The position numbers and the translations under genes are program-made. From a virus, in IMG/VR virus record IMGVR_UViG_3300043788_000058, positions 1 to 43,191 of that record: 43,191 nucleotides of DNA; one strand, written 5' to 3'. The notes under the pieces were generated by a model. The model had not been told where the DNA came from. It saw only the letters and a list, made by a program, of their open reading frames with translations, and ran no database searches. Positions within the stretch are counted from its first letter, which is position 1. Every line of letters begins with the position of its first letter. Positions 1,954 to 43,191 of the stretch are shown piece after piece.

Positions 1954-1970
1954 GTTACAGTTACGGTAAC
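1954..1970. promoter_or_regulatory. Dispersed palindrome, intergenic copy (one mismatch)
   Basis: GTTACAG-TTA-CGGTAAC matches the GTTACCG-N3-CGGTAAC consensus at 13 of 14 fixed positions. It lies one base beyond the stop codon of the 1650-residue gene and directly upstream of the GGAGG of the 1584-1943 gene. Confidence 0.8.
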
Positions 1971-1971
1971 A

Positions 1972-4900
1972 TCAGCGGGTAAGCTTATTGTAAACGTTTT
2001 CCTCCCACCCGCGGTTCCCCTTGCGGGCACGCGCGGCGGCATCCTGCGCCTCCTTGACGGGCGAGTGGGCCTCATACGCGATGGCGGCAGGGGACGGGTT
2101 GCGGAAGTCTAAGGCTTGGTCACGGACGCTGCCCAGCGCGCCGCCCGGGGAGCGGCTCTCCAGCGCCTTGGACGCCATGGCATACGGCGCGATGAACGTC
2201 TTGGCGCCGGCGGCAGCGCCTTGGGTAGCAACCCGACCGGCTGCCTGAAGTCGGTTCGGACCCTTCGCCATGCGCGCCATGTCGCCCGGCTGCACGAACG
2301 GACGGCCGGCAAAATCGCGGTTCTTGTAGAGGTCATAGGCGCCGCCGACCAACGGTGACAAGGTGAGAGCGCTCGACGGACCCACGTTCAACAGGTCCTC
2401 CTTACCCTCCATCGCCCGGGCGACATGATTGGGGAGGGCTAACGGGCCTCGGCGCCGCGCCTCAGAATGGTTGTTCCCGGTCAGCGCCTGCGCAGCCTTA
2501 TCCCATAACGGGTAGACCGCGAACGCGAGAATACCAAGCGCCATCATCTTGCCGATGGCGTCCTTCCGTTCCTCGCCGGTCCCTTGGACGCTGTCCTTAA
2601 CGATATGCGCATAAGAGTTGAACACGCCATGGTGATAAGGTCCGAACGCAAAAAGAGTGTTGTCGCGCAGCGCGTTTGCTATGATACGCCCCCAGTTCTT
2701 GCCGCTGATCACGCGGCTCGGCACGCGGTAGTTCGGGAAGTGCTTCTCCACGTCGGTAATCGCCTCTTTCATTGTGCTTCCACCCTTCATCCGTTCCGCC
2801 ACTAGTTGGGTATAGAACATATCGTTAGCCATCCACATGATCTTGCTGGATGCGCGATAGATCGCGCGCGCGAGGTCGGCCGAGTTCCACTCAGGTCCAA
2901 ACACCCGAGCGATCGGGTCCCATTTCGACGGCTGACTGGCGATGGCGACGCCAGCCGCCTTAGCGATATTATGCAGTCGGTTCTGATTAAGCACACCACC
3001 GGTCTGAGTACCACCACCATGCTCACGGATAATATCTTGGAAGCGACGATAAGCCGGACTGTTAAGTCCCATCATCGTTCCAAGCGGTGACTTTACGATT
3101 GCGGTGTCTTGCGAGAGAACAGATCGAATGCTAAAGAGACTGGTTTCGTACAGGTCCTTGTACGCCTGCGGCTTAATCCATAACGAGCCGCGGGCGACAA
3201 ACCAGTGTGCGCCCACGTTCGCGATATGGAACGTCGGCAAAAGGAACAACATCTTTGTCACCTTCTCACTAAGGTTCCGGATCGCGTTCCACGCCTCATT
3301 TGACGTGAACCCGGGCGCTGCAAAATCGTCAAAGACTTCACGCACGCGAGGGTGCATATACCAATCCCTCATTTGCGGCATGACCGTCTTTTGCCACGGC
3401 TCGTCCTTCTTCGCCCATGCCTGTGCCTGTGCTGCATCCGGCGTGCCGAGCTTCCGCGACAATAGATCGGGCTTGAGGCTCTCCAGATACTGAAGGTGGG
3501 ATAGAATATCTCGCAATTCAGCGTTGGTAACATAGGCGCTCAGGATCGCGCTCTTGTAATATTTAGCAGGCTGGCCGTTGGAGAAGTTGGCATGCGCCTC
3601 GATCTCAGGGGTGAGCGCATCGCGTACCGTCTGCAAGACGTTATTGTGATCGCGGAACTGGGTCCCTACCGACGTATCAAACGCCGCGTTCTGTCGCAGC
3701 ACTGATCGGTGATTGTGCCACTCGCTGTAGCCGCGATCATTTTGAGAGACAATCGTCCGTTTACCGTTCGGGTCTTCAAGCGCCATGAACTCACGCTGCA
3801 TGGTCTGCTGGGCTGATAGTTTCAACCCGCGGCGGCGCGTTGCCATCACGTTGGCGACAGGGTCACCGCCGAAGTCCGGATGCAACCCCTGCGGAATACG
3901 CGACGTATGGCTGTGGACCTTGGGGCCAAGCGTCCCGGGCGCAAGGGCCTCGATTTGATCCGTGATATGGTCATTGTCTTCAAACACCGGATCAAGTTCC
4001 TTATAGTATGCATCGCGCTGATCCTTCGGCAAGCTGGCGATATCATCCCGCTCGCGGGCCAGATAAACATCGTCACCCTCCTTAAGAATATCCGAGTGCT
4101 GGGCTGCTTCCTTCTCACGATCAAGCCAGTTGGTATCGCCCATCTTGCGGACCTGATAAAAACCGTCGTCAACACTACGAGCATATTCTTCGCGCCATGA
4201 CGACGGCGCTCGCGCCATGAACCGCTTGGCGAACTGTTGCTTCTTAGGTCCGAGAAACCCACGGATGGATTGGATCAGACGTTGGGGGTTAAAGCTACCG
4301 TCCTCGTTGGTGAGGAAGTCCGCGGCGTCGTAATAATCAAGTCCCGGCTTCTGGCCGGCGCTACGTTCGCCCCAGTTCTCCGTCTCCCAGTCGCTCGCGT
4401 CGTGCTCGGCGGGACCGAACTCGCGCTCCCACGCCGCGCGGTCCTTCGGGTCAAGCGTCTTAGTCCATTCACCAATCGCGCTATCGATCGGATCGGTGGT
4501 AACACGCCGCTTGTTCATGGCAACATCGGTATCGACACGGTTCATGCCACGAACTTCGCGTCCAGTGGCGCCGCGGCGTAGCATGACTTCGTCCCGAATG
4601 AACTTCGCTACGTCGGCCGGCTTCACCTTGCCGGGCTCCAGCGGTTCGCCGGCGCGGTTGAACACCAGCTTGTAAGCATTACGCAGCCACTCCTGCGGGC
4701 CGGTGCGCTTTACCGGCATGGGACGGAGCGGGTGCTTGCCGAAGTTTTCCTCCTGCGCATGCGCGACGGCGTCTTGTAGCCGCTTCACGAACGCAGCGCG
4801 ATCCTCAAGGGTTGTCGGGACCTTGTCGTTCGGCGGCGGGAACTTTTCAAACGCAGCCTGCGCAGCATTCTGTGCATGACGCGCGGTGCGTGCCTCCGTC

Positions 4901-6924
4901 TCGGAGCCAGCGGTAATCGTCTCGCCTTCGTTCTGGACCACTGCGCGCGCGTTCTTCTTTTGGGTGGCGACGCGCTCCTGCTCCGTGGCGCGGCGCTCAG
5001 CGAGCCCGGGGTTCTGCGCTTCCTCCAGCATCTGGGTTGCGCGGGTATGCTCGTCCTCCGTCTGGGCGCGCTCCAGCAGCCGGCGCGCGGTCTGCGCCTT
5101 GGCTTCGTCCACCAGTCCGCTTCCCTCTTGCTGGGGCGCAGTGAGGTCACGTAGGATGCGCCGCACCGTCACGGCATGCTCCGGGCGGCTCTCGACCGCG
5201 TCGGCAACTTTGTCCATACCCAACTTGCGAAGCTGTGTTACCGTGTCGGTAACAGCCGCGTCGGCGATCTCGCTCGGCTTCTGGGGCTGATCCGGCTCTT
5301 GGGCGCCAGCGTCCTGCGTCCCTTCGTCAGGCTGGATCGCTGCCTTCTGTGCGGTGTCAATGTTGGCTTCAGCCGGCTCTAATGTCTCAAATGACGGCTT
5401 GACGCCGCTGCCACTACTCGACGGATGCACGTTGCTATCCGCCGTCGCGCGGTAGTCGCGCGCGCTCCCAACACTCAGCGGGTGGTCAGGGTTGCTGCCG
5501 ACAGTCGAAGAATTACGCGGGGGCGGCGCTTCTGCATGCGCGGTCCCGACCGTGCTGGCGTTGTTGCGCGCCGGCGTTGCCTCGCGCTTGGACGTGACGA
5601 TAAACTCTTTCGTCTTCTGCGGAGGCGGGCCGAGTTGCTCCGGGGTCGGTGTCACGTTGTCGATCGGCGCTGTCCCGGGCTGCGACTGGCCCGCGAGGTT
5701 CTCGTTGGCGACCTTCCCCTTCAGGCTGCGCGGGAGCCGCGACTTACCATAATTTATCCCAAGCGACTGCGCCGGTGCGCCCTGTTGGGGCTGTGTGCCG
5801 CCGGGGTTGTCCTGCATAATGGAGTTCCCCATGTCCTCAGGGAACCCGTGGCCGGCAGCACCTTGGCCTTCCGTGTTACCGAGGTCCGGGTACATGGTCT
5901 CGGGCTCAGGCCCCGGCTCAACCGTCTGCCCCTGCTCCCAGTCCGTGCCCTTAGTGTAGTCGGGGCTGTATTGGTTCTCGTTGTCCGGCGGGTTCTCGGC
6001 GACGGGCTCCGTCTCCTCGCGCTCGTCCGGTCGCCCGGGCCGCCCTTCGGGAGGCACTTGCTCCGGGTTCCAGAAGGCACGTGAGCGCGCCTGTCCAGCG
6101 TTGATCGCCGCCTGCGTCGCAGCCGGGAGCCGACCCCGGATATTCTCCGCGGCTTGTGTCCCGACCCCTTCCAGCGCGCTCCCGATCCGGGTCCGCTTGT
6201 TCATCAGGGCCATGGCGCCGGACGCCAACGCGATCTTGCCGGGGTCGAGGTCCTCGCCTTGCAGCTTCTCTTGTCCCGCTTCCAGCCCGGCGCCGACCGT
6301 CGCCGGCAGAACGCGGGTCGCGAGCTTCCCGGCCGTGGACGGGTTGAACGCAAGTAGGTTCGGCGCCAGTTCACCAGCCATGGCCGCATACGGATGCGCC
6401 TCCACGTCAGCGGTACGGCTGGCTGTGTCGAGCAGCCCGAGCTTCTCAAGAATGTAGTCTTGGACCTTGGACACCGCGGCGCCGCCTAGCATGGCGCCCC
6501 CGATGCCGCCGATCAAGCCCCCGAGAGGCACAGTGATAGGGGCGATCGGGACGGGAAGGGCGCCTATCGCAGCGCCGAGTTCACCGCCAACCACCGCGCC
6601 CGCAATGCCACCAGCCGCCGGGAGTGCGCCGCGTGCCGCCCCGCGGGCGAATGCGCCGGCCGCGGAAGGCTCGCCAACGGTATACCCCTTTGCCTTGATT
6701 TCGTCGTCGGAGATTACCGGCCAGTCGGTATCAGCCTCAGAGGGCTCATTATCGCCGACGGTATATCCCTTTGCCTTGATTTCGTCGTCGGAGATTACCG
6801 GCCAGTCGGTCTCAGAAGGTCCTTCAACCGTGCCACCTTCGGCAAAAGCTAGCGTACTGCCGGCCGAACGAATGGTATCCGCTGCCGGGCTATCCGCGAG
6901 TTGTGCCAGCTTCGGGTTGGCCAC
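1972..6924 (-). CDS. Very large internal virion / ejection-type protein, 1650 aa
   Basis: This is the largest gene in the window. It starts with GTG (6924-6922) behind GGAG. The N-terminus has AFAEGG and two copies of a DWPVISDDEIKAKGYTVG peptide (about residues 40-57 and 67-84). A Gly/Ala-rich glycine-zipper-like hydrophobic stretch follows (about 88-150) that could insert in a membrane. A long, charged, low-complexity middle (about 270-680) leads to a helical C-terminal half. Size, glycine-zipper-like segment and position next to other internal-virion-type genes suggest a protein packaged in the head and ejected with DNA, as for podovirus internal core proteins. No catalytic motif is evident. 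It carries one palindromic site at 5237-5253. Confidence 0.75.
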   Translation of the reverse strand: MANPKLAQLADSPAADTIRSAGSTLAFAEGGTVEGPSETDWPVISDDEIKAKGYTVGDNEPSEADTDWPVISDDEIKAKGYTVGEPSAAGAFARGAARGALPAAGGIAGAVVGGELGAAIGALPVPIAPITVPLGGLIGGIGGAMLGGAAVSKVQDYILEKLGLLDTASRTADVEAHPYAAMAGELAPNLLAFNPSTAGKLATRVLPATVGAGLEAGQEKLQGEDLDPGKIALASGAMALMNKRTRIGSALEGVGTQAAENIRGRLPAATQAAINAGQARSRAFWNPEQVPPEGRPGRPDEREETEPVAENPPDNENQYSPDYTKGTDWEQGQTVEPGPEPETMYPDLGNTEGQGAAGHGFPEDMGNSIMQDNPGGTQPQQGAPAQSLGINYGKSRLPRSLKGKVANENLAGQSQPGTAPIDNVTPTPEQLGPPPQKTKEFIVTSKREATPARNNASTVGTAHAEAPPPRNSSTVGSNPDHPLSVGSARDYRATADSNVHPSSSGSGVKPSFETLEPAEANIDTAQKAAIQPDEGTQDAGAQEPDQPQKPSEIADAAVTDTVTQLRKLGMDKVADAVESRPEHAVTVRRILRDLTAPQQEGSGLVDEAKAQTARRLLERAQTEDEHTRATQMLEEAQNPGLAERRATEQERVATQKKNARAVVQNEGETITAGSETEARTARHAQNAAQAAFEKFPPPNDKVPTTLEDRAAFVKRLQDAVAHAQEENFGKHPLRPMPVKRTGPQEWLRNAYKLVFNRAGEPLEPGKVKPADVAKFIRDEVMLRRGATGREVRGMNRVDTDVAMNKRRVTTDPIDSAIGEWTKTLDPKDRAAWEREFGPAEHDASDWETENWGERSAGQKPGLDYYDAADFLTNEDGSFNPQRLIQSIRGFLGPKKQQFAKRFMARAPSSWREEYARSVDDGFYQVRKMGDTNWLDREKEAAQHSDILKEGDDVYLARERDDIASLPKDQRDAYYKELDPVFEDNDHITDQIEALAPGTLGPKVHSHTSRIPQGLHPDFGGDPVANVMATRRRGLKLSAQQTMQREFMALEDPNGKRTIVSQNDRGYSEWHNHRSVLRQNAAFDTSVGTQFRDHNNVLQTVRDALTPEIEAHANFSNGQPAKYYKSAILSAYVTNAELRDILSHLQYLESLKPDLLSRKLGTPDAAQAQAWAKKDEPWQKTVMPQMRDWYMHPRVREVFDDFAAPGFTSNEAWNAIRNLSEKVTKMLFLLPTFHIANVGAHWFVARGSLWIKPQAYKDLYETSLFSIRSVLSQDTAIVKSPLGTMMGLNSPAYRRFQDIIREHGGGTQTGGVLNQNRLHNIAKAAGVAIASQPSKWDPIARVFGPEWNSADLARAIYRASSKIMWMANDMFYTQLVAERMKGGSTMKEAITDVEKHFPNYRVPSRVISGKNWGRIIANALRDNTLFAFGPYHHGVFNSYAHIVKDSVQGTGEERKDAIGKMMALGILAFAVYPLWDKAAQALTGNNHSEARRRGPLALPNHVARAMEGKEDLLNVGPSSALTLSPLVGGAYDLYKNRDFAGRPFVQPGDMARMAKGPNRLQAAGRVATQGAAAGAKTFIAPYAMASKALESRSPGGALGSVRDQALDFRNPSPAAIAYEAHSPVKEAQDAAARARKGNRGWEENVYNKLTR
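5237..5253. promoter_or_regulatory. Dispersed palindrome, perfect copy
   Basis: GTTACCG-TGT-CGGTAAC. It is inside the 1650-residue gene and encodes V-T-D-T-V-T on the minus strand, far from either gene end. Confidence 0.85.
6677..6810 (-). repeat. 81-bp-period direct duplication (two 53-bp copies)
   Basis: Copies at 6677-6729 and 6758-6810 differ at one base and encode the duplicated DWPVISDDEIKAKGYTVG peptide near the N-terminus of the 1650-residue protein. Near identity at DNA level indicates a recent duplication. Confidence 0.85.
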
Positions 6925-6935: not shown

Positions 6936-8549
6936 TTACTGGTTGGCGTAGACCGGCTCACCAGTCGCCTTGACGCCAATTTGTCGCCGTACGTTTTGAC
7001 CACTGGGGCTAGCCCCTGTTTGCGGAGCAGTTGCACCATTAACGACCGGCGCCGCCGGCGCTCGTGTCGGTTGAGTTTGCCCGAAGATACCATGGACATC
7101 AACTCCCTGCTTCTTCAACTCGGCGAACACAGTATCGAGGTCCTGCCCTTGGGCGGTCATACCCTTGATCGCAGACTGAATAATTCCACCTTGTGTCTTT
7201 TCTTGGTCCGTCGCCGATTGACGCGACATCTTGAGACCAAGAGCCATCATATCATTCTTCATCTTCTGGTCAAAGCGCTTATTCTCGGCGTCCTGTCGGA
7301 TGCGCTGGATATTCTCGCCATGCACACCGCGAATATCCCACATTTTCTCGCGCCCCTCCGCCCCGATCTTGGCGCTCTCCACTGTGGCAGCACCGCGGGT
7401 ATTCGCCACGTTCTCGGATGCAGTCCCGCGCGTCTGTGCGACGCGAAGCAGGTTCTCGCCCTTCTCGCGCTCCAACTGTAGCTGGTGTGCGCGGGCCTCG
7501 CGCTGCTGCTTCTGCGCTACCATGAACTCGTTCTGCTTCTGCCGCTCGGCCCAGCCGCCGCCCGGGTGCATCATTTCAGCCTGCGTGCGATCCTCTGCGT
7601 CGGGAGCCGCCGGCTGCGGCTGCGCCTGAGTTTGATCGCTCACACCGGCTGTCGCACCAAGCGCCTGCATGGCCGCATGCGGCCCGTGCACAAGAACACT
7701 ATACCCAAGACCGTTCTGGGTCCCAAGGAGCTTCTGGAACTGCGTGGGATTAAGCGTGTATGCCTGCGGCTGACCATCCGGGTCCGTTACCGTTGCGGTA
7801 ACATTTCCGTGGTTCGCCTCGAAATGGATACTTTCCTCGACCGGCAAGTTCTTGAACGCGCGGTTCGCGGCATCGACGGCCGAGCCGATATTGCCGGCGC
7901 CGACAGCGTTTGCAGCATAGAACCGGAGCGCGTCATACTTCTGGACCTGACCTTGCATCAACGCCGCGGCGGCGGCCGGACCCGCCTTTTCTGTCGCATA
8001 CTCCAAGGCGTCCAACGACTGCTGGTTGGGCGACTTGATGTTGTTCGGGTCCACAGCGTTGACGAGCGCGGACTGGGTCTGCGGGTCCATGGCGTTCGAG
8101 CCGCGAAGGAAGTTCGTCAAGCGACGATGAAGGTCTCCCATGAGCGGACCACCGAGCACGTTAGCCGCCGTAGTATCAGCCGCAGCTAACGCGCCCGGGA
8201 TTTTCTTGGTGACGCTCCAGTCCTGCGCCGGGAGCGCGTTCCACGCCGTCTTCGCGGCGTCGAGCGGGTTACCCTGTGGGCCGCCCGACGAGATACCATA
8301 GCTGGAGAGAAGATGCTGGAGCGTGCTCTCCACGATGGCGGACATTTTCCGCTGCGCCGGCCCCAAATCAAACTGTGTAGACTGCGGCGGGGCCTGATCG
8401 TTGTCGGGTCCTTCGGTTCCAGTCACGGCGCCCGCGTCCGGTGCAGTCGTGGACTGTTCCGCAGTGGTCGCGTCAGTGTCCTGCGCATCCGGTGCGGTGG
8501 TCGGGATCGCACCTTCGTTCTCGTCCGTAAACTCGTCCGTGTCGGCCAT
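6936..8549 (-). CDS. Internal virion-type protein, 537 aa, coiled coil
   Basis: ATG at 8549-8547 with GGAG six bases upstream, overlapping the stop of the preceding gene. The N-terminal 60 residues are acidic, Thr/Ala/Pro-rich and probably disordered. A helical middle follows, then a long charged coiled-coil stretch (about residues 330-470, beginning GGWAERQKQNEF) and a Gly/Pro-rich end. No enzyme motif is seen. It sits between two other presumptive internal virion genes, so a role in the ejected core or as a structural scaffold is likely. One perfect palindrome lies at 7786-7802, encoding V-T-A-T-V-T. Confidence 0.65.
   Translation of the reverse strand: MADTDEFTDENEGAIPTTAPDAQDTDATTAEQSTTAPDAGAVTGTEGPDNDQAPPQSTQFDLGPAQRKMSAIVESTLQHLLSSYGISSGGPQGNPLDAAKTAWNALPAQDWSVTKKIPGALAAADTTAANVLGGPLMGDLHRRLTNFLRGSNAMDPQTQSALVNAVDPNNIKSPNQQSLDALEYATEKAGPAAAAALMQGQVQKYDALRFYAANAVGAGNIGSAVDAANRAFKNLPVEESIHFEANHGNVTATVTDPDGQPQAYTLNPTQFQKLLGTQNGLGYSVLVHGPHAAMQALGATAGVSDQTQAQPQPAAPDAEDRTQAEMMHPGGGWAERQKQNEFMVAQKQQREARAHQLQLEREKGENLLRVAQTRGTASENVANTRGAATVESAKIGAEGREKMWDIRGVHGENIQRIRQDAENKRFDQKMKNDMMALGLKMSRQSATDQEKTQGGIIQSAIKGMTAQGQDLDTVFAELKKQGVDVHGIFGQTQPTRAPAAPVVNGATAPQTGASPSGQNVRRQIGVKATGEPVYANQ
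7786..7802. promoter_or_regulatory. Dispersed palindrome, perfect copy
   Basis: GTTACCG-TTG-CGGTAAC within the 537-residue gene, in the V-T-x-x-V-T frame. Confidence 0.85.
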
Positions 8550-10819: not shown

Positions 10820-13800
10820 TCATTTCGCCAGCCGCAGTTCCTTGACACTGGTTGCCAGCTTGATATTCGTGACGCTTACAACACCCTCGATCTCCACCTG
10901 CCACGTCGTATACTTCTGCGCCGACGTGATCCGCATGAGTTCAGTCGAGTAGCGCAGTTCGCGCTCCGTGATGTAATTCCCATCAGCGATGATCCGCACC
11001 ACGCCAAACATCCCGGGCGCATATGCTAGCGTCGCCGTCGGCGACACCACAAACGGAACCTCAGTGCGAGACGCAGGCGGCGTTTGCGGGCCGCCCGGCG
11101 GGATATCAAACCAGACGCGGAAGGCATCGTAGTTTTCTCGGTTTGGGCCTTGGAACTTTTTGGAGCGCCAGATGGATTTTGTGATGGTAGGAGCGGGGTT
11201 AGGAAAGTCGTAATAATAGGTATTGCCCCCGGCAATAAGGAGAGTAACCCCAGACCAAGGATCAGTAAGTACATTATCAATGTTAGCCCCGTTAGGAGCG
11301 CTGAGAGTGCCGAAGCCAATACGATGACCACCAACTTGAGGCCAAATCGTAAAGCTCTGAGTGTTTGCGATTTCACTGAGTTCAATAGTGAACCCTTGCT
11401 GCGCGACGCTGGTGTCCGGCGTTCCATTGGTAACCCCTGTCGTTCCAAACGCGAAGTACGTGCTCACGTTCTTGGCTGCACGAACAAACTTTTGGGGAGT
11501 GTAAAAATCCCATTTCTCACGCGTGATCCAGTCCTGCGTGGTATTCACTGCGTAGCCGTTTCCGCTGACCTTGATCAAGCCATTGACGCTCGGATAGTAG
11601 ACCCCGTTCTCGGTACTCAGGATACCGCCGCGCGACGTGCACGGCTCAGGCAGCGGGATACGCTGTTGCGTCACCGTGTTAGGATTTACACCAGTAAAAA
11701 CCTGCGGGTTGTATTGGGTGCACGCAACCACGCTGGCACCCGAAACACCGAGCCCGACGATCGGATAGTCCGTCGTCATCACGTAGCCGGATGGCCACGC
11801 GTGCGGCCGGAAAGGCTCGCAGAACCAAACCTCGTTACCCTTGAACCCGGCGATCATCCCGTTGGGCATGGTCACCATGCCTTGTAGGTTCGTCGGCGGA
11901 CCAAACCATGTCGTACTGGGCAGAATGAGATTATCAGCTACCACGTCGTCAGTGACATTATCGGCGAAGTTCGAGCACGTAGCAGCAAAAGATGCCACAA
12001 GAAAGAAGACCGTTCCACCTTGGACGGACGACATGGTACGATAGAGGTTCGTCTGCACGATGTTGCGCAGCGTCCCCATATCCTCTTTGAGCGGCGGCTG
12101 GAGCCCCACATTCCATGTCGCGTTATCGTAGGCGTCCAAGAGCGCTGGCGGGGACGGTGGGCCTTCCTCGCCGTACGCGGTGACCCATGTGTAGACGTAC
12201 GCACGCGTTTCCTCCTGTGCTTCACCCGAAGTGCCCGGCGTCAGGTTGCCCCACAGTTGGAGGTCCGGGAAGCCGGTGGTCATGTTCGACGGCGCTTCCG
12301 GGGAGCCGGTAGTCGCGTCGGTCGGCAGCGCGCTAAGCTGCCCAAACTGCACGATGGATGACAGACCTTGTGCCTTGGTGTCGCCAAGCGCGAGCGTCAT
12401 GTTGCCGTTCGGAATGTACTGATTGATGAAGCCGCCGCCGTCGAGCAGCGCGCCAATCCAGTACTGCGTGTTTGCCGTCAGCGTCGGCGTGGTCCCCATC
12501 ACCGATGTTACCGCCTGCGGTAACGTAGGCGCGGCGCTCCCCAGAAGCTCGCCCTGCGAGCCGACCGCGATAATATCGCCCGGCGCGTTGCTCTCGGTCA
12601 AACTGGTCGCGCTCACGTCGGCGAAGATCACGCCGCGGAACAGGAAGTTCGCATTAGCGCCGAGGGTCGCCACCTGCACACTGATGCTGGCGAGCGTCGC
12701 CTCAACGCTGGTCTGCATCGGATACAGCACGAGGATGCTATCACCATCGACTTGGTCATTTACGGGGAGTTGCCCGTAATACTCGGTACCGCCGACGTTG
12801 TATGGCTGCAAGAAATTATACGTGGTCGCCGTGTTTGAACCCGGGAAGCCGATCTGGGTGGGATTACCACCGCCCGCCACCGCAAGGGTCGGCGCGATCG
12901 GAGGCGCAGGCACGCCAAGGAGCCACGGCGACTGCCCGTTCTTGATCCGATCATAGGTGTTGTACTGGGGCGGCAAGCTGGGGCTCGCCCAGTAGTACCG
13001 TTGGAACTCATCGTCCACCACCGGCGTACGGAGCACGTTCGTGTCTTGATCAAGGAACTCCAGCCACGCGGACGCTCCCGTGATCGTGGTGTCCGAGGTC
13101 TGATTGGCGCCACCGGTGAACAGCGTCGTGCGATCACTCAACGACGCGAGGTCAAACGTCCACGCTAGCCGCGCGCCGTTCGTGCTCTCGGCAACAGGCG
13201 TTTGGTTATAGGCGGCGCCGAACTCGGGCGCCTGCAAGGACAAATACGGGAACGGGCCGCCACCTTGGATCGTCGCCACGTTGAGCGTGTTGATCGGATC
13301 GGATGACGTGAGCACCGCCATGGTCCCCCAAAGCTGCCAGTTAGGCTGGTTCTGGTTATAGGCGCTCTCCAGCGAGCCGACCGTCGTACCGCCAGTTGTG
13401 ACACCGGTAAGCTCAGTGGTCTGGAACGGGTTCGGGGGACCGTTGGTATAGGTGTTGGACATGGAGACACCGAGCGTGCCGTTGCTCGACTGATTGAGCG
13501 GCACCGACGTGTCCATGATGAAGCCGATCCAATATGTCGAGCCTTCCTGCAATGTGATGTTCGTCCCGAACGCACTGACGATCGGCTGGCCCGTCGTGCA
13601 CCCGACAACCTGTGCACCGGTTGCGACCAGCGACGTGGGAATGTGAATGTACGCGGTGCCAGCCTGATTAATCTGGTACGTGTCCTCGTAGACTACGCCA
13701 GTGAAGTGCGCACCGGCGCTCGACCCGGCTGGCATCACGCTCACCTGCGAGAGGTTCATCGTGTCGGACGGCGTCACCGGCACAAGGATAACTGAGTTCG

Positions 13801-15588: not shown

Positions 15589-15605
15589 CTTACCGCCACG
15601 GTAAC
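15589..15605. promoter_or_regulatory. Dispersed palindrome, intergenic copy (one mismatch)
   Basis: CTTACCG-CCA-CGGTAAC, 13 of 14 consensus positions. It lies in the short gap between the collagen fibre stop (15626) and the AAGGAG of the 15268-15579 gene. Confidence 0.85.
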
Positions 15606-18240: not shown

Positions 18241-18242
18241 CG

Positions 18243-19028: not shown

Positions 19029-19811
19029 TTAGAACCTCCGGTCACTGCCCATCCACAGACCGCCGCGCTGGCTAGACGTGCGGAACTGCTGCGGGAAGGC
19101 CCATGCGCTGGCGCCAAACGTATTCTGTTTCAGGGCACGAACGCGGGCGATATTGACACCTTGTCGAAACAAGCCGTAATTGATCTTGCCGAGGTTGAGG
19201 TCCGAATAGGGACGATCAGCCTGTAGCTGCATCTTACCCTTGATGCCGGCAAGTAGCCACGTTTCATATGTGCGCACCACCCAATACGGCACGTGAGGAA
19301 GATCAGTACCCTCAGGGATACGCACGTTCTTGATCACCGTCGCATACACCGAGATCGCGTTGCTGGGCGCATGGTACAGGGTGAGGATCGGCGGAATAGG
19401 CATGTGGCCACGCCACGGCTGACGCGTGGTCGGTTCGATTACACTCGCGAGCCCAATAATCTCGCCCTTGGGAAAGGGCTCAAACAAGCTCTGCGGGTTA
19501 CCGGGCTCCAGCCAGTATTCCTGTACGGACGCTTGCAGGATACCGGGGATCGCCTCAAGCCAACAAGAACTGTCGTTGAAGAACTCGTGAAATACTTCGT
19601 ACATCACCGTGCGGATCGCCGCGTCGCTGGCGCCAAGCAGTTCAGTGCGCGCGCGATTATAGAGATACTCGACGTGCGCCTTCAAATTCACAGCACCCGT
19701 CGGCCCGGTCGCGCCAGTGGTACCGAAAAACGCCGGCCCTGTTACCGCGCCGGTAACACCCAAGAACGTACCTGTCGTGCCGGTAGGCCCCGGCTGCCAA
19801 AACTCTTGCAT
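19029..19811 (-). CDS. Head-tail adaptor / tail tube-type protein with short collagen-like N-terminus
   Basis: The 260-residue protein begins with a 40-residue collagen-like leader (QPGPTGTTG, then [10 protein letters not shown]). A helical and beta domain follows (HVEYLYNRARTELLGASDAAIR, later WVVRTYETWLLAGIKGKMQ and PYSDLNLGKINYGLFRQGVN). The latter pattern (a Trp-rich helix, then gKPwSnl..a..y..F..Gi..AR) resembles adaptors encoded just after the capsid gene in podovirus-like phages. A collagen-like leader on an adaptor is odd. A perfect palindrome at 19741-19757 falls in the leader, about 18 codons from the start. Confidence 0.65.
   Translation of the reverse strand: MQEFWQPGPTGTTGTFLGVTGAVTGPAFFGTTGATGPTGAVNLKAHVEYLYNRARTELLGASDAAIRTVMYEVFHEFFNDSSCWLEAIPGILQASVQEYWLEPGNPQSLFEPFPKGEIIGLASVIEPTTRQPWRGHMPIPPILTLYHAPSNAISVYATVIKNVRIPEGTDLPHVPYWVVRTYETWLLAGIKGKMQLQADRPYSDLNLGKINYGLFRQGVNIARVRALKQNTFGASAWAFPQQFRTSSQRGGLWMGSDRRF
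19741..19757. promoter_or_regulatory. Dispersed palindrome, perfect copy
   Basis: GTTACCG-CGC-CGGTAAC, 54 bases inside the 19029-19811 gene, encoding V-T-G-A-V-T within a collagen-like leader. Confidence 0.85.
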
Positions 19812-21361: not shown

Positions 21362-22471
21362 TTAACGAATGCGGCCAGTACGCTGGCACTCGAAGATGAT
21401 CGCCTGATCATTGAGATAGTCCTGCTGGCGGCCGTTATAGACGCCACGTCGGACATTAGCGAAGAAATCTTTGATCTGACCGCGTGTGATCCAGATCGGC
21501 TCCGAAGCGGACGCGCTCGGTTGGGCACCGACGGCCGGCTTGGCATGCCCGGGGGCTGCGAGCGCACTTAGCTCTAAGGCCGGGGGAGACGGCGCGGCTG
21601 AAAGCGGCGGCGGCATACCCGGTCCAAATTCAGTGGACCCCGTGGCTTCTTCCTCTGCGAGGAAGCCTTTGAAGAAGGACACAACCCGGGCGGCGTCTGC
21701 GGCCCTATGTGCGTCCATCAGCAATTCCTTACGTATACGACCCGAGTAAACATCACGTAAAGACAGCCAAGCCTTGAAACGCGGGCTTATGTTGATCGCG
21801 AGCCAATTTGGAACCTCGCGGTCCAGCGACATATTGACGCTATCAAGCGCCGTCCGGCGGATACGATGTTCGAGCCGAGCGTTACGTTCCTCAAGCTCGG
21901 CGATCTTCGGACTGACCGCCTGCAAGGCGGCGCGTTGCGCCACATTCAACAGGTCCTCGCCATAGGTGCTCACGTCTTCCGGCGTCAACAGCGGGGTCGG
22001 CGTGCGCGGCGGGATGGAGGGAGCCGATGGAGGGACAGTCTGCCGACTGGTCTGCGTCTGCACAAGCTCGGCGCCGATCTCGTTCAAGCTCGACTGGAGC
22101 GACGTAATGGTCTCCTGCGACTGACGATAACGCCCCTCCATGGACTTCGCATGGTGCGCCCACTGCTCAGGGGTCCAGTTCGCGCGCGGGTCCGCCGCGG
22201 GCTGCGGCTCAGGAGCCGGCGTGGGCGGTGTGGGCTGCGGCTGGGGAACGGGCTGTGGCGCCGGGGGCTGCGGCGTCGTAGGCTGCGGCTGGGGAACGGG
22301 CTGTGGCGCTGGGGACGGCGTAGATTGTGCGTACACCTGTTTGTGACGCGCTTCTGCCTGCGTTACCGCGGCGGTAACACGAGCGGGCAGCACAACATTT
22401 GGATCAACCGCAGCGCGCTGCATGCCGCGGCTATCCGTCTCAATCGAGAGCGGCTTCAACTCATCAGCCAT
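21362..22471 (-). CDS. Capsid scaffolding protein, 369 aa
   Basis: Located directly upstream of the capsid gene, with AGGAG before the start. Residues 50-95 are a Pro/Gln repeat (PAPQPVPQPQPT twice). A coiled-coil middle follows (about 110-215: EGRYRQSQETITSLQSSLNE and PKIAELEERNARLEHRIRR), then an acidic region. The C-terminal helix-turn-helix-like end (ITRGQIKDFFANVRRGVYNG, then AIIFECQRTGRI) matches the basic coat-binding tail of phage scaffolds. A perfect palindrome occurs at codons 32-37. Confidence 0.8.
   Translation of the reverse strand: MADELKPLSIETDSRGMQRAAVDPNVVLPARVTAAVTQAEARHKQVYAQSTPSPAPQPVPQPQPTTPQPPAPQPVPQPQPTPPTPAPEPQPAADPRANWTPEQWAHHAKSMEGRYRQSQETITSLQSSLNEIGAELVQTQTSRQTVPPSAPSIPPRTPTPLLTPEDVSTYGEDLLNVAQRAALQAVSPKIAELEERNARLEHRIRRTALDSVNMSLDREVPNWLAINISPRFKAWLSLRDVYSGRIRKELLMDAHRAADAARVVSFFKGFLAEEEATGSTEFGPGMPPPLSAAPSPPALELSALAAPGHAKPAVGAQPSASASEPIWITRGQIKDFFANVRRGVYNGRQQDYLNDQAIIFECQRTGRIR
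22362..22378. promoter_or_regulatory. Dispersed palindrome, perfect copy
   Basis: GTTACCG-CGG-CGGTAAC near the 5' end of the scaffold gene, 93 bases from the start, encoding V-T-A-A-V-T. Confidence 0.85.
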
Positions 22472-26390: not shown

Positions 26391-28348
26391 ATGAGGTCCC
26401 TTATGTCCTGAGCCGCAAGCTTGCCGATCCACGCCTCACGATCAAGCACCCCGAACGACACAAGCATCGTGCCGTCGGCCGGATGCCATGCAAGCCCCAT
26501 AGCGAACTCAATCTGTTTTTCGAAGAAGACGAACGGCCGTGAGTATTTAGTCAGCGCGAACTTTTCATCGAACCACACGAACCGGTGCTGATAGAACCGC
26601 TTCCCGTTAGTCGGGTCCGGTCGCGCTTCATGCACGATTGCTACCCATCCCCCATCGAAGGGCACCAACTGACCGCCTCCTGAAAACTGATCGACCGCGA
26701 TCGTCGGTGTATGCGCATGCTCAAACTCGCCGCTGCTATTCATTACCATGCCGGGACGATACATGAACCGCCCTTCTCTCCCGACGATCGGCATCCAGTT
26801 TTTCTCGTTCTGTTTCGGCAGACCGACAGGCTCCACCCGCGTACAGTCAGTCAACTCGCCAGTCTTTTGGTTGATCTTCATCACAAACTGCTCACGCCAA
26901 GCCTGCGGGTTCTGTTCGAGCATACAACCGTTCGCCCACAAGTCCCCGTCCTTTTCGTAGAGCCGCATGTCTTCCACGTCGAGAACGTCAGAGAACACCG
27001 GTTCTGGAAGGCCGGTCGGCCGGCGCAGTTTGAGCGCGCTTTGAAGCGTGAGATCGGACGAGAAGTTGCACAGATAATTCGTCGTGCGGATCGCATTGAA
27101 CCCGTTATAATCGTAGCTCCCGTCAGGGCGGATACGATAACTCACTGTGCGCACGACCGCCTGAATGCCGTCTTGCGAGACAAAGATTGACGGGTTTGAG
27201 TTCGTATAGCCCGCCTCACTCGCAACATTTGCGATGCGCACTGCCTTGAAAGACGATGCTACCTCAACAAGAGGTCGCAAATAATAGAACAGATTACGGC
27301 GTGCGCCCTCGCGCACTTCGGCGGGGACCCGCTGCATCAACGATAACTGATCACATGCGCGAAACCCTTCAGCCCGTGTCTTATCACTGTAGAACCCGAG
27401 GATCGATTTTTCGTGGAGAAAACCCCAATCATAGATGGATTGCTCCACAAATAGCATATCCTTCGGATACGTGATCTTCGAGCCCGCATCGGCGAACAGC
27501 CACGCTGTCTGCTGTTGATCACGCTGCTCGCGATAATACCGGGCGAGATCATAAAGCGGTTCCGCGCGCTGCGGGCGCGCGTTGTACGCTGCAAGGGCAT
27601 ATGTCACAAACCCCGCATCATCACCTAGCGCACGAGTGGATCGCGCCTTCTGGAGGCGCGCATACCATACTTCCTCGTCCCAGCCGCCAACATCCACACG
27701 ACGATCATACTTCTCAATCGCAGCTTTGTGGAGGCCACGATCCTTGAGGGTCTGTCCGAGATAGAACAAAGTACGGGCATCATCAGGATGCTGAACAAGA
27801 TAATCTTCAAGAAGCCGTGTGTCGCGCTCATATTTGTCTCCGCGGTTCGATCCGGTCGCGTGGTCAAGGAACCACCACGTGTCACTCGGAAGCAGCGTCT
27901 GCTCGTCCGCACCAAGATATTCGTGCGTGACACCGTGATACCAAGCCTTCGACCCATTCCGCAGCAGACGCACGTTATGGTAGGCGAGGTCGCCGGAACG
28001 CTGGATCATCGCGTAGCTCTCGGCGGTCAAAGGCGGCAGGGGACCTTCCACCTTAAGCTCCATATCAGCATCCATCAGCAAGAGATAATCCCACAGGCGC
28101 TGATGCACCCGCGCGTATAAAAGAGCCGAATTGCGGGCCTGCTCAAAATTTACGAACGTCGTCCGCTGGACAACGCATTGGATATTCCGTTCCTTGAAGA
28201 AGGCCGCGATAAACTCAGGCGTGCCGTCCGTGGACCCGGTGTCAACAATTACCGCCACGGTAACATGCGGTGCGACACTCGCGAGCGCGCGCGGGAGGTT
28301 CGCAATCTCATTCTTGACGATCATATTCAAGCAGAGGCGGGGCGACAT
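26378..28348 (-). CDS. GT2 glycosyltransferase with TPR and C-terminal propeller-like region, 656 aa
   Basis: An N-terminal GT-A domain shows LNMIVKNE (8-14), VDTGSTDGT (35-43), the FEQARN motif (69-74) and a DxD at D93-A-D95 in LLMDADMEL. TPR-like repeats follow at about 170-300 (HPDDARTLFYLGQTLKDRG). The C-terminal 300 residues look like a beta-propeller of the GH130 type (NPSIF, GMVMNSSGEFEHAHTP, ending FAMGLAWHPADGTMLVSFG). The start at 28348 begins the family core directly; a GTG at 28372 is an alternative. Likely transfers an activated sugar to a protein or growing glycan. The gene sits immediately after two collagen-like fibre genes. The dispersed palindrome occurs near its 5' end. Confidence 0.8.
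   Translation of the reverse strand: MSPRLCLNMIVKNEIANLPRALASVAPHVTVAVIVDTGSTDGTPEFIAAFFKERNIQCVVQRTTFVNFEQARNSALLYARVHQRLWDYLLLMDADMELKVEGPLPPLTAESYAMIQRSGDLAYHNVRLLRNGSKAWYHGVTHEYLGADEQTLLPSDTWWFLDHATGSNRGDKYERDTRLLEDYLVQHPDDARTLFYLGQTLKDRGLHKAAIEKYDRRVDVGGWDEEVWYARLQKARSTRALGDDAGFVTYALAAYNARPQRAEPLYDLARYYREQRDQQQTAWLFADAGSKITYPKDMLFVEQSIYDWGFLHEKSILGFYSDKTRAEGFRACDQLSLMQRVPAEVREGARRNLFYYLRPLVEVASSFKAVRIANVASEAGYTNSNPSIFVSQDGIQAVVRTVSYRIRPDGSYDYNGFNAIRTTNYLCNFSSDLTLQSALKLRRPTGLPEPVFSDVLDVEDMRLYEKDGDLWANGCMLEQNPQAWREQFVMKINQKTGELTDCTRVEPVGLPKQNEKNWMPIVGREGRFMYRPGMVMNSSGEFEHAHTPTIAVDQFSGGGQLVPFDGGWVAIVHEARPDPTNGKRFYQHRFVWFDEKFALTKYSRPFVFFEKQIEFAMGLAWHPADGTMLVSFGVLDREAWIGKLAAQDIRDLIWHS
28248..28264. 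promoter_or_regulatory. Dispersed palindrome, one mismatch
   Basis: ATTACCG-CCA-CGGTAAC near the 5' end of the GT2 gene, encoding V-T-V-A-V-I. Confidence 0.75.
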
Positions 28349-28410
28349 GGGGTGGGGTCCCTGTTTCACCACGGAAGGTATCTAAAACTGATACCTTATG
28401 CAAGCGAAAA

Positions 28411-29304: not shown

Positions 29305-29319
29305 TGTAGCCTCCATCAA

Positions 29320-29964
<645 letters not shown>

Positions 29965-33150: not shown

Positions 33151-33699
33151 ATGACACAGATCGTCCCCACTGTTACCGTGCCGGTAACAATCCCTGAACT
33201 GGGCGCGCCGCTCACCCCGGCACTAGCCGCGGGTTTAGCGCGAGAGATCGCAATCGGGCTGCGCGAGCTTCCGGAAATCCTAGAGGCCTACAAAATATCG
33301 GCCGAGACTTACGAAAAACTTAAAGCGCATGAGTTCTTCCAGAAGCTAGTTGACTTGTCCCGGATCGAATGGCATGCTGCGGCCAATACTCAAAACCGTC
33401 TCGCTTTGGAGGCGGCCGCCACGGCGGAAGCTATCATGCCCGCGGTTTACGCCCGAGCGATCGACCCGAAAGAACCCCTCAATCACGTAGTCGATTATCT
33501 GAAATGGCTGGCGGACGTGGGCGGCTTGAAGCATGACGCTAACAAAGGTACTCCCGGTGAACGGTTCCAAATCACCATCAACCTTGGCGCTGATACGAAG
33601 ATCGAGTTCGACGGATCAAAAGCGCCAATCGGCGGCGACCCCAATAATCTCCCGGTCCTTCCGCTGCCTAGCTTTGATGACAAAGAGGACCGCGTATGA
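33151..33699 (+). CDS. Terminase small subunit-like protein, 182 aa
   Basis: First gene of the plus-strand packaging operon. The N-terminal part is helical (AREIAIGLRELPEILEAYKI, then SAETYEKLKAHEFFQKL), compatible with the helix-turn-helix of small terminases. The middle (NTQNRLALEAAATAEAIMPA) and the end are beta-like. Identity rests mainly on position, two genes ahead of the phosphoesterase and large terminase, and on the LPEIL-xx-Y-x-IS-xx-x-YE pattern. The ribosome binding site is weak (GAGG 14 bases away). A perfect palindrome begins 21 bases into the gene. Confidence 0.5.
   Translation: MTQIVPTVTVPVTIPELGAPLTPALAAGLAREIAIGLRELPEILEAYKISAETYEKLKAHEFFQKLVDLSRIEWHAAANTQNRLALEAAATAEAIMPAVYARAIDPKEPLNHVVDYLKWLADVGGLKHDANKGTPGERFQITINLGADTKIEFDGSKAPIGGDPNNLPVLPLPSFDDKEDRV
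33172..33188. promoter_or_regulatory. Dispersed palindrome at divergent junction, perfect copy
   Basis: GTTACCG-TGC-CGGTAAC, seven codons into the terminase-small-like gene (V-T-V-P-V-T) and 60 bases upstream of the divergently transcribed portal start. It is well placed to affect both transcription directions. Confidence 0.85.
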
Positions 33700-36771: not shown

Positions 36772-36788
36772 ATTACGGCAGCGGTAAC
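36772..36788. promoter_or_regulatory. Dispersed palindrome, intergenic copy (two mismatches)
   Basis: ATTACGG-CAG-CGGTAAC, 12 of 14 consensus positions. It abuts the GGAGG of the 36424-36759 gene. Confidence 0.65.
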
Positions 36789-38287: not shown

Positions 38288-38662
38288 GGAAGTCTCCCAA
38301 CGTTTGGGTGAAGCATCAATCGGCGATGATATTGTCGCCGGGTTAACAGACGGTAAAGGTCGATCCGTTGTTACCGAGACGGTAACAGCTGGACGCGGCG
38401 ACGGCCGCCTGTCTCGTGACACAGTCTCCTGTGTAACCTTGGCACCACCGTGGGCCGCTGCGATGGCGGCTTTACAGGTGGCGCTCACCTGTGACTGGTT
38501 GGCGGCCATGCACTTGACGATGGCAGGGATGCCCTGTGGGATGGCGCTCGTGCAGAGCCGGAACGCATCTGGCGCGCACGCGGTGCGCTCGGCCGCCGTG
38601 TAAGCCTGCGCGCCCGCGCATAGAACGCCGACGCACGCTGCCGCGTATAAGTGCCGTTTCAT
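38003..38662 (-). CDS. Secreted Cys-rich protein fused in frame to membrane/Ala-Pro-rich segment, 219 aa
   Basis: From the ATG at 38662 (AGGGG seven bases upstream) comes a clear signal peptide (MKRHLYAAACVGVLCAGAQA), then a Cys-rich domain (ERTACAPDAFRLCTSAIPQG and IVKCMAANQSQVSATCKAAI). The pattern C-x(2)-D-A-x-R-L-C...C-M...C is widespread in secreted proteins of Bradyrhizobium-like bacteria. The frame continues without a stop into a second module with its own start (38287): membrane helix, coiled coil and Ala/Pro tail. Either this is a fusion or an internal start yields two products. The upstream frame stays open even further, to 38851. Confidence 0.5.
   Translation of the reverse strand: MKRHLYAAACVGVLCAGAQAYTAAERTACAPDAFRLCTSAIPQGIPAIVKCMAANQSQVSATCKAAIAAAHGGAKVTQETVSRDRRPSPRPAVTVSVTTDRPLPSVNPATISSPIDASPKRWETSMFEFLGAHAGQGFALFGVLVLAYWVATKLLAPGATWLTSLVTVAKSDFAALEARVSSVETAVGIAPAAATPAKAKPAAAVAPAVVASASPAASA
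38370..38386. promoter_or_regulatory. Dispersed palindrome, perfect copy
   Basis: GTTACCG-AGA-CGGTAAC in the 38003-38662 frame (V-T-V-S-V-T), about 85 bases upstream of the internal start at 38287. Confidence 0.85.
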
Positions 38663-40961: not shown

Positions 40962-41351
40962 TTAAGCCGGACCGGTTTCGCCACTGGCACCGGTTGCGGA
41001 TGTAGCGCCCGCACCGCCAGTGGGACCCGTGGTGCCTGAAGGTCCAGCCGACGCGGGCGCGGTAAGCGCGGCGTCGAGGGCCTGCACCTGAGTGAGGATG
41101 GTCTGCAACCCTGTTACCGCCGCGGTAATCGCCGCCTCGTCGGTCGGGTCGATGGTGGCATTGCCGAGCGCGGTCTGCAAGGCAGCAAGCGCGGTCTGCG
41201 TATCGGTGGCAAGCTTGCTGACCGCCGTCTGAAGCGCGGTCACAAGCTGGGTCAATGCAGCGACTTGGGCATCCATGGCGATGATCCTCTCAAGGACGGT
41301 ATCCAGTTTCCGATGAAGGTGGGAGAAGCTGGAGGCTATCTCGGCGTCCAT
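40962..41351 (-). CDS. Coiled-coil protein with collagen-like C-terminus, 129 aa
   Basis: GAGAGGGGG precedes the ATG at 41351. Residues 5-100 are a long coiled coil (FSHLHRKLDTVLERIIAMDA, VSKLATDTQTALAALQTALG, later TILTQVQALDAALT). The last 30 residues are Gly-X-Thr/Ser triplets (GPSGTTGPTGGAGATSATGA). A coiled-coil trimeriser followed by a collagen-like end suggests a small fibre or a tether. It is the only collagen-like gene in the right part of the window. A palindrome (one mismatch) lies at 41113-41129. Confidence 0.65.
   Translation of the reverse strand: MDAEIASSFSHLHRKLDTVLERIIAMDAQVAALTQLVTALQTAVSKLATDTQTALAALQTALGNATIDPTDEAAITAAVTGLQTILTQVQALDAALTAPASAGPSGTTGPTGGAGATSATGASGETGPA
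41113..41129. promoter_or_regulatory. Dispersed palindrome, one mismatch
   Basis: GTTACCG-CCG-CGGTAAT inside the 40962-41351 gene, encoding I-T-A-A-V-T. Confidence 0.75.
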
Positions 41352-42099: not shown

Positions 42100-42146
42100 T
42101 AGACTTCTCCTAGAGCCATGCTGATATGTGTGGCCTTCCAGACAAG

Positions 42147-42627
42147 TTGACAAATTCGTTTTCGCGCCGTTGGCGGGCTGCGAAAAGTTAACGACTTGCA
42201 TATTTCGCGGCGTAAGTTAATTCGTCAGATACGTTTTCGGAGTTGACAAATTAAGTTTTGCAAATTCAAGTATCTGCAACCATTGACGAATTTTCTTAAT
42301 CTGTCAATTTGTCAAAGATTTTTGGGTAGGATACCCTAAAAGGGACTTCGACATTGATATTATTCGGTGACCTAACAAAAGGTAAAGCTAATTTGTAAGA
42401 AAAAGTTGACAAATTAGCTTTACCTTTTAGTAAGGCACTCAACTATCCAATCAATTAAAAAAAACCGTAGTCTTGTTTTTTCGTTACTTTTTCTTAACTT
42501 TGCGAATTAATATCAATGTCGAAGTCCCTTTATAGGTATCCTACCTAAAAATCGCTTACAAATTGACAGATTAAGAAAATTCCTCAATTGGTTCAAAGAC
42601 TTGAATTTGCAAAACTTAATTTGTCAA
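42147..42627. repeat. Five copies of the 10-mer TTGACAAATT
   Basis: Exact copies are at 42147-42156, 42243-42252 and 42406-42415 on the plus strand and at 42306-42315 and 42618-42627 on the minus strand. Looser forms (TTGACGAATT, TTGACAGATT) are also present. This density suggests binding sites for a replication or regulatory protein. Although TTGACA is a -35 hexamer, no matching -10 lies at the right spacing for the first three. Confidence 0.7.
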
Positions 42628-42657
42628 CTCCAAAAACACGTTTTGCGAATTAACTTA
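42213..42657. repeat. 150-bp inverted repeat pair flanking a 145-bp loop
   Basis: The left arm (42213-42362) and right arm (42508-42657) are the same length and align as inverted repeats with about 130 of 150 matches. Mismatches cluster in short blocks (for example 42225-42232), leaving conserved blocks such as GAGTTGACAAATTAAGTTTT and GGACTTCGACATTGATATTA. The region is much more AT-rich than the rest of the window and has no gene. It sits between leftward and rightward transcription units, so an origin of replication or a master control region is the best guess. Confidence 0.9.
42377..42428. repeat. Inner 20-bp perfect inverted repeat
   Basis: The 20 bases at 42377-42396 are the exact reverse complement of 42409-42428, with a 12-base loop, in the centre of the large inverted repeat. 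The right half begins within a TTGACAAATT copy. Confidence 0.9.
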
Positions 42658-42691
42658 ATCCAGGAAATATGTGAACCTTCGCACTTTTTGC

Positions 42692-42720
42692 TTGACATGA
42701 CTGCGAGACTATCTCATAAT
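42692..42720 (+). promoter_or_regulatory. Consensus sigma70 promoter
   Basis: TTGACA (42692-42697), a 17-base spacer, then CATAAT (42715-42720): a perfect -35 and a one-mismatch -10. Transcription would begin near 42727, with GGAGG at 42744 and the ATG at 42754. It is the strongest promoter I see in the window. Confidence 0.9.
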
Positions 42721-42753
42721 TCGCAGCATCCAGTGTAACTTATGGAGGCGTAA

Positions 42754-43191
42754 ATGTCCCGCTCTAGCAACGTTTCATATCACGATGGTGTGTGGCGTGT
42801 GCCTGTGTATCCCCTGATCCAACGGATCAACCGCAAGCTTGCAACCTTCGTACCACACCGGGAGTTGTATCACCGATATGGGACAAAGGACTACTATCTC
42901 AGGTCCTATGCTCTAGGGGGAGCCCCTCTGAAGGATATAGGGCCGGTCTATTACCAGCATTTGATTGGTCTTGCTGACTACATTTCGCTGTGGACGGGTA
43001 AAGAAAAAATGCACAATCCCAAAGTTGTCATCGATAAAGATTTAACGACCTATGCCAACGAGCCTTGGCCTGCGCACATGGCATTCGACATGCTTTCCAG
43101 TCGTCTTGCCGACGCGGCGAATTTGCTCGTGCACGAAGGTTGGAAGGTGACACCGCCTGTTACCGCAACGGTAACGAACGGCGCCTTGCTA
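42754..43191 (+). CDS. Hypothetical early-type protein, 3' end beyond window
   Basis: The ATG lies five bases after GGAGG and is driven by the consensus promoter. 146 codons are open to the edge (MSRSSNVSYHDGVWRVPVYP, later RELYHRYGTKDYYLRSYALG). No recognised domain; the protein appears soluble and aromatic-rich. Being the first gene right of the inverted-repeat region, on the opposite strand to the late genes, it is probably an early gene. A perfect palindrome lies at 43159-43175 (V-T-A-T-V-T). Confidence 0.75.
   Translation, partial: MSRSSNVSYHDGVWRVPVYPLIQRINRKLATFVPHRELYHRYGTKDYYLRSYALGGAPLKDIGPVYYQHLIGLADYISLWTGKEKMHNPKVVIDKDLTTYANEPWPAHMAFDMLSSRLADAANLLVHEGWKVTPPVTATVTNGALL
43159..43175. 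promoter_or_regulatory. Dispersed palindrome, perfect copy
   Basis: GTTACCG-CAA-CGGTAAC in the plus-strand early-type gene, showing that sites occur in both transcriptional arms. Confidence 0.85.

Follow-up and report, generated by a model that had tools for sequence, protein, structure and literature searches.

What purpose is served by a palindrome that returns every few kilobases along the DNA of a virus? The linear virus record IMGVR_UViG_3300043788_000058, analyzed here over its whole length of 43,191 bases (hereafter the window; G000 among the genomes compared), carries the dyad GTTACCG-N3-CGGTAAC or close derivatives at 13 places. A first-pass annotation, made from the sequence alone, had noticed these sites and proposed that a dimeric DNA-binding protein recognizes them, a kind of site that their symmetry and dispersal fit. 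We found that the sites are selected at the DNA level, are regularly spaced, co-occur in related phages with a gene module encoding an AAA+ ATPase and a VWA-metallopeptidase, and co-diverge with two further module proteins, P147 and P250. We therefore regard the palindromes as probable docking sites of a module product.

The 13 coordinates given by the first-pass annotation were all correct, as were its classes (seven perfect 7-3-7 dyads, one perfect dyad with a 4-base spacer, four sites with one mismatch and one with two); a palindrome reads alike on either strand, so its remark that the sites occupy both does not apply, and no strand is given below. Retention refers to the orthologous place in a relative, and sites with no further remark come from the motif search of the window.

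1954..1970: dyad with one mismatch, GTTACAG-TTA-CGGTAAC.
5237..5253: perfect dyad, spacer TGT, inside a 1650-aa open reading frame (ORF) of cluster 25; also perfect in G001.
7786..7802: perfect dyad, spacer TTG; retained in G024 (one mismatch), G025 (two) and G012 (one).
12507..12524: perfect dyad, 4-base spacer CCTG.
15589..15605: dyad with one mismatch, spacer CCA.
19741..19757: perfect dyad, spacer CGC; retained in G024 and G025 (one mismatch each), five mismatches in dyad-less G009.
22362..22378: perfect dyad, spacer CGG.
28248..28264: dyad with one mismatch, spacer CCA; retained in G024 and G025 (two mismatches each), six mismatches in dyad-less G009.
33172..33188: perfect dyad, spacer TGC; also perfect in G001, one mismatch in G025, not retained in G012 or G024.
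36772..36788: dyad with two mismatches, spacer CAG.
38370..38386: perfect dyad, spacer AGA.
41113..41129: dyad with one mismatch, spacer CCG.
43159..43175: perfect dyad, spacer CAA; perfect in G024, nine mismatches in G025.

We compared the number of dyads with that in shuffled sequences. In 100 dinucleotide-preserving shuffles of the window, spacer-3 matches with at most three mismatches averaged 2.12 (maximum 6), compared with 15 observed. A second test permuted synonymous codons within the called genes and counted spacers of 3 and 4; over 200 shuffles, sites with at most two mismatches averaged 3.46 (maximum 7), compared with 13 observed, and perfect dyads averaged 0.035 (maximum 1), compared with eight observed. 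Perfect sites likewise exceeded the synonymous-codon mean in the relatives G012 (3 versus 0.005), G001 (12 versus 0.09), G005 (3 versus 0.04) and G024 (1 versus 0.005). The dyad stands far above shuffles of matched codon usage, and the sites are selected at the DNA level. They are not indifferent to codon context, a point on which the first-pass annotation has to be amended: 155 of 226 in-gene sites (16 genomes) start at the first base of a codon, giving Val-Thr-x-x-Val-Thr.

Because the window is a genome fragment, it cannot by itself show the genome-wide dispersal claimed for the motif; the evidence for that comes from its relatives. The portals of named phages closest to that of the window belong to the Rhizobium phages RHph_TM27A, TM27B, TM29 and TM3_14A (57% over 76% of the protein), and the relatives are podovirus-like records of ~55–70 kb. 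They carry the same dyad 8–28 times or variants of it, mostly TTAC-N6/7/8-GTAA, with 8 to 59 dispersed sites per genome (G017 and G019, in which the motif is poorly set, left out). Loci chosen blind to the motif, by portal and terminase, contained 158 sites with at most two mismatches in 1.88 Mb, compared with 12 for the backwards control; several loci come from one record, and sites are therefore counted more than once. When whole records were searched, 20 of 28 had at least one match. Records lacking the window motif often contain other dispersed dyads (GTTACC-N6, TTACCC-N3/4, TAACTGC-N2, TTACACC-N0, TCACTA-N4), and loci selected by DNA polymerase add TTACTG-N3, TTACGG-N3, TTACCT-N4, TTACTC-N4 and others. 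Spacers of 2, 3 and 4 occur with the same half-site in relatives, and spacers of 0 to 4, with longer stems, across other lineages. These lineage-specific variants, like the module described below, lie outside the window and had been missed by the first-pass annotation. An exact 6-mer dyad search found none dispersed in G009, G011, G020, G029, G030 and G032, where the highest count was three (G020). Outside the TTAC theme, the low-G+C relative L183 has TCACTA-N4-TAGTGA 11 times in 22 kb, and the module-less relative L435 has four copies of a different dyad, AGGACA-N3-TGTCCT, within 18 kb, which might be an independent array.

At in-gene orthologous places, sites with at most two mismatches were kept in 9/10 cases from G007 to G013, 11/16 from G024 to G025, 5/7 from G012 to G028, 4/9 from G024 to G000 and 1/6 from G012 to G010. 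The same comparison in dyad-less records gave 0/7 for G009 and 0/6 and 0/5 for G011. These figures indicate that the array persists while single posts move.

We then analyzed the placement of the sites. Within the window, intervals run from 1598 to 5886 bases with a coefficient of variation (CV) of 0.35, compared with 0.90 for random placement. Local regularity of intervals (CV2) was evident in all 21 genomes tested, which omit G017 and G019 (0.38–0.81 versus ~1.0; P < 0.05 in 18/21), and the mean CV2 was 0.587, compared with 1.001 (standard deviation, sd, 0.033) for random placement, 0.881 (sd 0.031) for random gene junctions and 1.011 (sd 0.033) for density-matched jitter. With a better pattern, G017 showed 45 sites and a CV of 0.73. 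Among 317 sites, 226 were inside called genes, 73 were intergenic and 18 overlapped a gene end. Where replication and structural blocks separate cleanly, density was higher in the former (in G012, 11 sites in 17.4 kb versus 2 in 20.3 kb); pooled values were 1.77 and 2.77 kb per site, respectively, blurred by permuted records. The regular spacing fits a genome-organizing role.

In most dyad-bearing relatives we observed the gene order P250, AAA+ ATPase, P147, VWA-metallopeptidase, P239, DNA polymerase. The ATPase is N4 gp24-like (phrog_1297, 1.4e-33), one homologue is annotated as MoxR-like, and its alignment columns G27 and K30 are invariant. The VWA protein is N4 gp25-like (phrog_1314, 8.4e-74), with DUF2201_N metallopeptidase and VWA-like domains (PF13203, PF09967), and keeps the motifs HExxH and DxSxS in 63 of 64 members each. 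We clustered ORFs by all-against-all comparison of 21 dyad-bearing and six dyad-less records. Among the clusters listed, only those of the ATPase and the VWA protein were present in 21/21 of the former and 0/6 of the latter; P250 (16/21), P147 (15/21) and P239 (13/21) were each absent from all six, and profile searches revealed further diverged copies. Some close relatives have lost the dyad although they retain the genes (G009, G011 and others), an outcome that the first-pass annotation had named as refuting, but the module is absent there too.

We also took a motif-blind sample of 80 loci, chosen by DNA polymerase. Both ATPase and VWA were present in 54 loci, and TTAC-N-GTAA reached z > 2.5 in 51 of these; L411 (G003), L409 and L454 did not, and carry degenerate or shifted dyads. 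Five loci had the VWA protein only and 21 had neither, and 16 of these 21 showed at most two copies of any TTAC-N4..10-GTAA spacing. The others (L428, L436, L437, L438 and L465) had 3 to 7 copies; in these the start of the polymerase is only 72 to 4412 bases away from where the contig stops, and the module could therefore lie off the contig. We combined polymerase loci with whole records, removed duplicates by hand and defined dyad-bearing as at least four TTAC-N6/7/8-GTAA at more than five times expectation, or at least six of two other variants. The resulting 82 polymerase-bearing records comprised 59 with module and dyads, 19 with neither, four with the module alone and none with dyads alone. 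Left out were G000, G008 and G031, which have no polymerase ORF, and the module-less loci L428, L433, L436, L437 and L438, whose polymerase lies <5 kb from the contig end; four of these five loci have dyads and three of these four have P239, which fits a truncated module. Two of the records with the module alone are L409, which has about a dozen degenerate sites (13 at up to two mismatches), and L460, which has six TAACTA-type dyads.

The dyad-less records fall at four separate places on a core tree (FastTree, nine proteins, with weak support on some branches). On the polymerase tree, six independent pairs lie on supported branches, and the dyad follows the module in 5.3 and opposes it in 0.0 of them on average (sign test, P 0.03–0.125; few independent events). 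In the first 50 kb of each of the Schitoviridae N4, LIT1, VBP47, ort11 and EcP1, family profiles found ATPase and VWA, but P147, P250 and P239 were undetected at E 0.05 and no dispersed dyads were seen, and the ATPase/VWA pair alone is thereby rejected as the cause of the dyads. In contrast, the first 50 kb of RHph_TM3_14A, a phage propagated on Rhizobium etli with the dyad GTTACCT-N4-AGGTAAC, contain all five module genes together with 41 TTAC-N7/8-GTAA dyads.

The reader of the dyad is probably encoded in this module. To compare the candidates, we used partial Mantel tests of protein against dyad sequence, corrected for polymerase distance, in 29 records with all genes. P147 (r = 0.56) and P250 (r = 0.50) gave the strongest correlations, neither being reached in any of 500 permutations, and were followed by VWA (0.25, P = 0.024), ATPase (0.16, P = 0.068) and P239 (–0.08). 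Within 23 N7-type records, P147 (0.67) and P250 (0.44, P = 0.004) remained, and the others were not significant. A column test with no tree correction ranked the proteins by mean z (P147 3.27, P250 3.13, ATPase 2.73, VWA 1.82, P239 1.47, polymerase 1.36). In L390 and L391, whose dyad is TTACTG, P147 has NSETNHYAHRN in place of FSDDFFSGHEE, the hairpin conserved elsewhere. P239 tracks the presence of the module and not the dyad sequence, and was rejected as reader; a P147 match in a Salmonella phage (E 0.07) lies within a 2.3-kb ORF of the head-gene region and was set aside.

On this basis, we propose that the 13 dyads of the window are posts of a phage-wide array, that a dimeric protein from the conserved module would bind them, with P147 the most likely reader and P250 the second candidate, and that the bound complex may organize, coat or mark phage DNA during replication. 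This last step follows from the posts being regular over the whole genome and not tied to promoters. The ATPase and VWA-metallopeptidase pair would most likely load, remodel or remove the bound protein. Taken whole, the proposal is evenly balanced between being right and being wrong in some part. The choice of P147 over P250 or another module protein is equally finely poised, and genome organization or marking appears slightly the more probable function when set against transcription control.

Several observations weigh against this proposal. The window itself, as a fragment, lacks the module, and the link to this phage rests on its relatives. Of the other two records with the module alone, L446 carries the VWA gene with no dyad seen, and L425 has three sites in 5.8 kb, too few to pass. 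Genome-wide placement is countered by G019, which even with a better pattern shows only nine sites, all within the first 14 kb, and in which P147 and P250 were undetected. Both P147 and P250 co-diverge with the dyad sequence, the hairpin conserved in P147 is acidic, and P250, which may fall outside a locus, was detected in just 35 of 90 records. Spacer length is followed by the ATPase (r = 0.43), a hint that this protein may contribute to dyad geometry; in a 50-record set without P250, the ATPase follows the dyad sequence as well (r = 0.20). Moreover, 29% of sites lie within 50 bases of a gene start, compared with 12% of random points (554 sites, approximate starts), which leaves room for transcription control.

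The structure predicted for P147, whose core is ~70–100 residues, offers a lead. The monomer model (pLDDT 84.5) shows a long helix, a hairpin and a helix, an arrangement that resembles the MADS-box domain of SRF, MEF2 and MCM1, and 30 of the 50 Foldseek matches listed were MADS-box complexes, all at E > 0.9. The Mcm1 site, taken here as TTACC-N6-GGTAA, is identical to the outer bases of the dyad. However, the centre of the phage site is G+C-rich and not A/T-rich. In the VIA comparison, MADS-box structures made up 19 of 24 matches at Z 2.3–3.2, below a meaningful level and with a GAF domain on top; they aligned over ~50 residues, with a root-mean-square deviation of ~3–4 Å in seven of the 19. 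A search with PF00319 found no MADS domain in 18 genomes at E up to 10, nor did MADS appear in the family matches listed for 43 members of P147; sequence thus gives the likeness no support. P250 is predicted to be all-helical (pLDDT 86); its fold had no match in the PDB at E ≤ 0.001, and the best VIA Z of 5.5 is typical of helical models. A new viral genome-organizing system in which a MADS-like dimeric P147 would sit on regular palindromic posts, be loaded or stripped by the AAA+/VWA-metalloprotease and have co-diverged with its posts into at least six specificities is a tentative idea that we consider rather unlikely in this full form.

The best surviving alternative, which we regard as possible but clearly the less favoured, is transcription control, in which a phage repressor would use the dyads as operators or as stoperator-like roadblocks and the dyad lineages would be immunity or timing groups. 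The many sites per genome, the co-divergence of lineage-specific motifs with module proteins and the enrichment near gene starts, and likewise near stops (26% of sites versus 12% of random points, 554 sites), agree with it, as do recurrent sites upstream of P239 (10/13) and of the cluster-2 head gene (13/20), compared with 20% of 1390 genes. Cluster A mycobacteriophages are described as having 20–30 short stoperators per phage, bound by one phage protein, with motif and protein drifting together (PMC6550527, PMC9283540). The L5-type stoperators resemble the present array in being many short sites dispersed over one genome and, by correlation only, in that candidate binding proteins (P147, P250) co-vary with the site. 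They are, however, asymmetric 13-mers that a monomer binds, follow the direction of transcription and are located at promoters and in short intergenic spaces of temperate phages, whereas the dyads are palindromic, regularly spaced, mostly in genes, tied to the AAA+/VWA module and mostly found without a tyrosine integrase. The first-pass annotation had already set the dyads apart from L5-type stoperators, and the palindromic form without an oriented flank upholds that distinction.

Other observations also argue against transcription control. No oriented flanking signal was found around 316 sites, nor a promoter-like flank; the dyads lie mostly within genes (226/317), and their spacing is more regular than that of random gene junctions. 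Tyrosine integrase (PF00589) was found in only two of 28 records, some of them fragments, and ParB (PF02195) in none, although positive controls were detected in 10/14 cases. The two integrases, both in dyad-bearing records, are at G013:2474-2971 and G018:1146-1577, and the annotated 'integrase' of RHph_TM3_14A matches DUF927 and no Pfam integrase family; most of these phages are probably not temperate in the classical sense. A regulator-like ORF of the window (37385-37930, weak Trans_reg_C) was rejected as binder, as its cluster is present in 14/21 dyad-bearing and 5/6 dyad-less records and so does not track the dyads. The phage phiC31 of Streptomyces also has dispersed palindromic sites within one genome, the conserved inverted repeats (CIRs), which are repressor operators of a temperate phage; we know of no AAA+/VWA module there.

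It is improbable, though less so than the hairpin-promoter and codon readings below, that the posts serve as a label by which a degradation or exclusion activity of the module spares phage DNA, or that they block a host defence. Regular coverage, DNA-level selection and strict co-occurrence with the AAA+/metallopeptidase pair are compatible with such self-marking, but seven module proteins had no defence-family match and the module proteins scanned contain no nuclease domain. Very improbable is a role as N4-type promoters, in which a virion RNA polymerase would recognize the extruded hairpins. The 7-3-7 dyad does have the 7-bp stem and 3-base loop of N4 early promoters; however, the loop is not fixed at three bases, as the spacers of 2–4 with one half-site and 0 to 4 across lineages show, the sites lack an oriented flanking signal, and no dispersed dyad was seen in N4. 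The first-pass annotation had also raised mimicry of a motif of the host chromosome, for which nucleoid motifs such as matS, SBS and Noc sites would be the models. This found no support: in a bacterial and archaeal collection, the exact motif gave only isolated matches, spread over phyla that are not related. In the 80 matches listed, from at least 119 stretches, only one stretch had two sites, and DNA polymerase or module genes were present at none of the listed loci. ParB-parS or KorB arrays differ in that PF02195 was found in none of the 28 records, and the stoperator, ParB, N4-promoter and host-mimicry readings are thus not supported. That a Val-Thr-x-x-Val-Thr peptide or codon bias yields the dyads can practically be dismissed despite the codon-phase bias, as eight perfect dyads against 0.035 with proteins and codon usage fixed refute it, 73 of 317 sites are intergenic, spacing differs by one base between sites, and module-less relatives with the same genes lack dyads.

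The remaining features of the window are recorded here. It encodes a portal, a large terminase, a major head protein and further structural genes; searches found no tRNA, no Rfam family at gathering scores and no near nucleotide match in phage DNA. An A-T-rich stretch (42199-42671) contains an imperfect inverted repeat of 164 nt, 85% complementary, which encloses a hairpin at 42367-42438; the stretch had no Rfam match and could be an origin or a divergent promoter region. Arrays of 9-nt period at 225-590, 16234-16600, 17100-18550 and 28780-29820 look like collagen-like Gly-X-Y coding, and the nearby ORF 19029-19811 weakly matches phrog_30509, 'collagen like minor tail' (E 0.0073). Methyltransferase-like (23628-24254), endonuclease V-like (24264-24974) and glycosyltransferase-like (26378-28372) ORFs lie among the structural genes.

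What is new here is the combination of a site array, an AAA+/VWA-protease module and small partner proteins, and none of the known kinds tested fits it. Our literature search, which covered open-licence PMC papers and in part returned mostly unrelated results, found no description of this array. Bacterial RavA-ViaA similarly pairs a MoxR AAA+ ATPase with a VWA protein, but the phage VWA protein carries a metallopeptidase motif, and we know of no DNA-site array for RavA-ViaA. N4 gp24 and gp25, an AAA ATPase and a vWFA protein, are homologous to the module pair and likewise lie side by side; they are listed as N4-like core genes without known function (PMC4193335, PMC2784036). If the array proved to be a repressor system, it would be a variant of the stoperator kind. 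The regular spacing suggests marking or an active control of genome architecture and not gene-by-gene regulation. A pair related to the N4-like core ATPase and VWA genes is thereby tied to a readable DNA signal, and its target becomes a direct binding question, for which TTACCG, TTACTG, TTACGG, TTACCC, TTACCT, TTACTC, TAACTGC and TTACACC provide natural specificity switches for mapping recognition residues.

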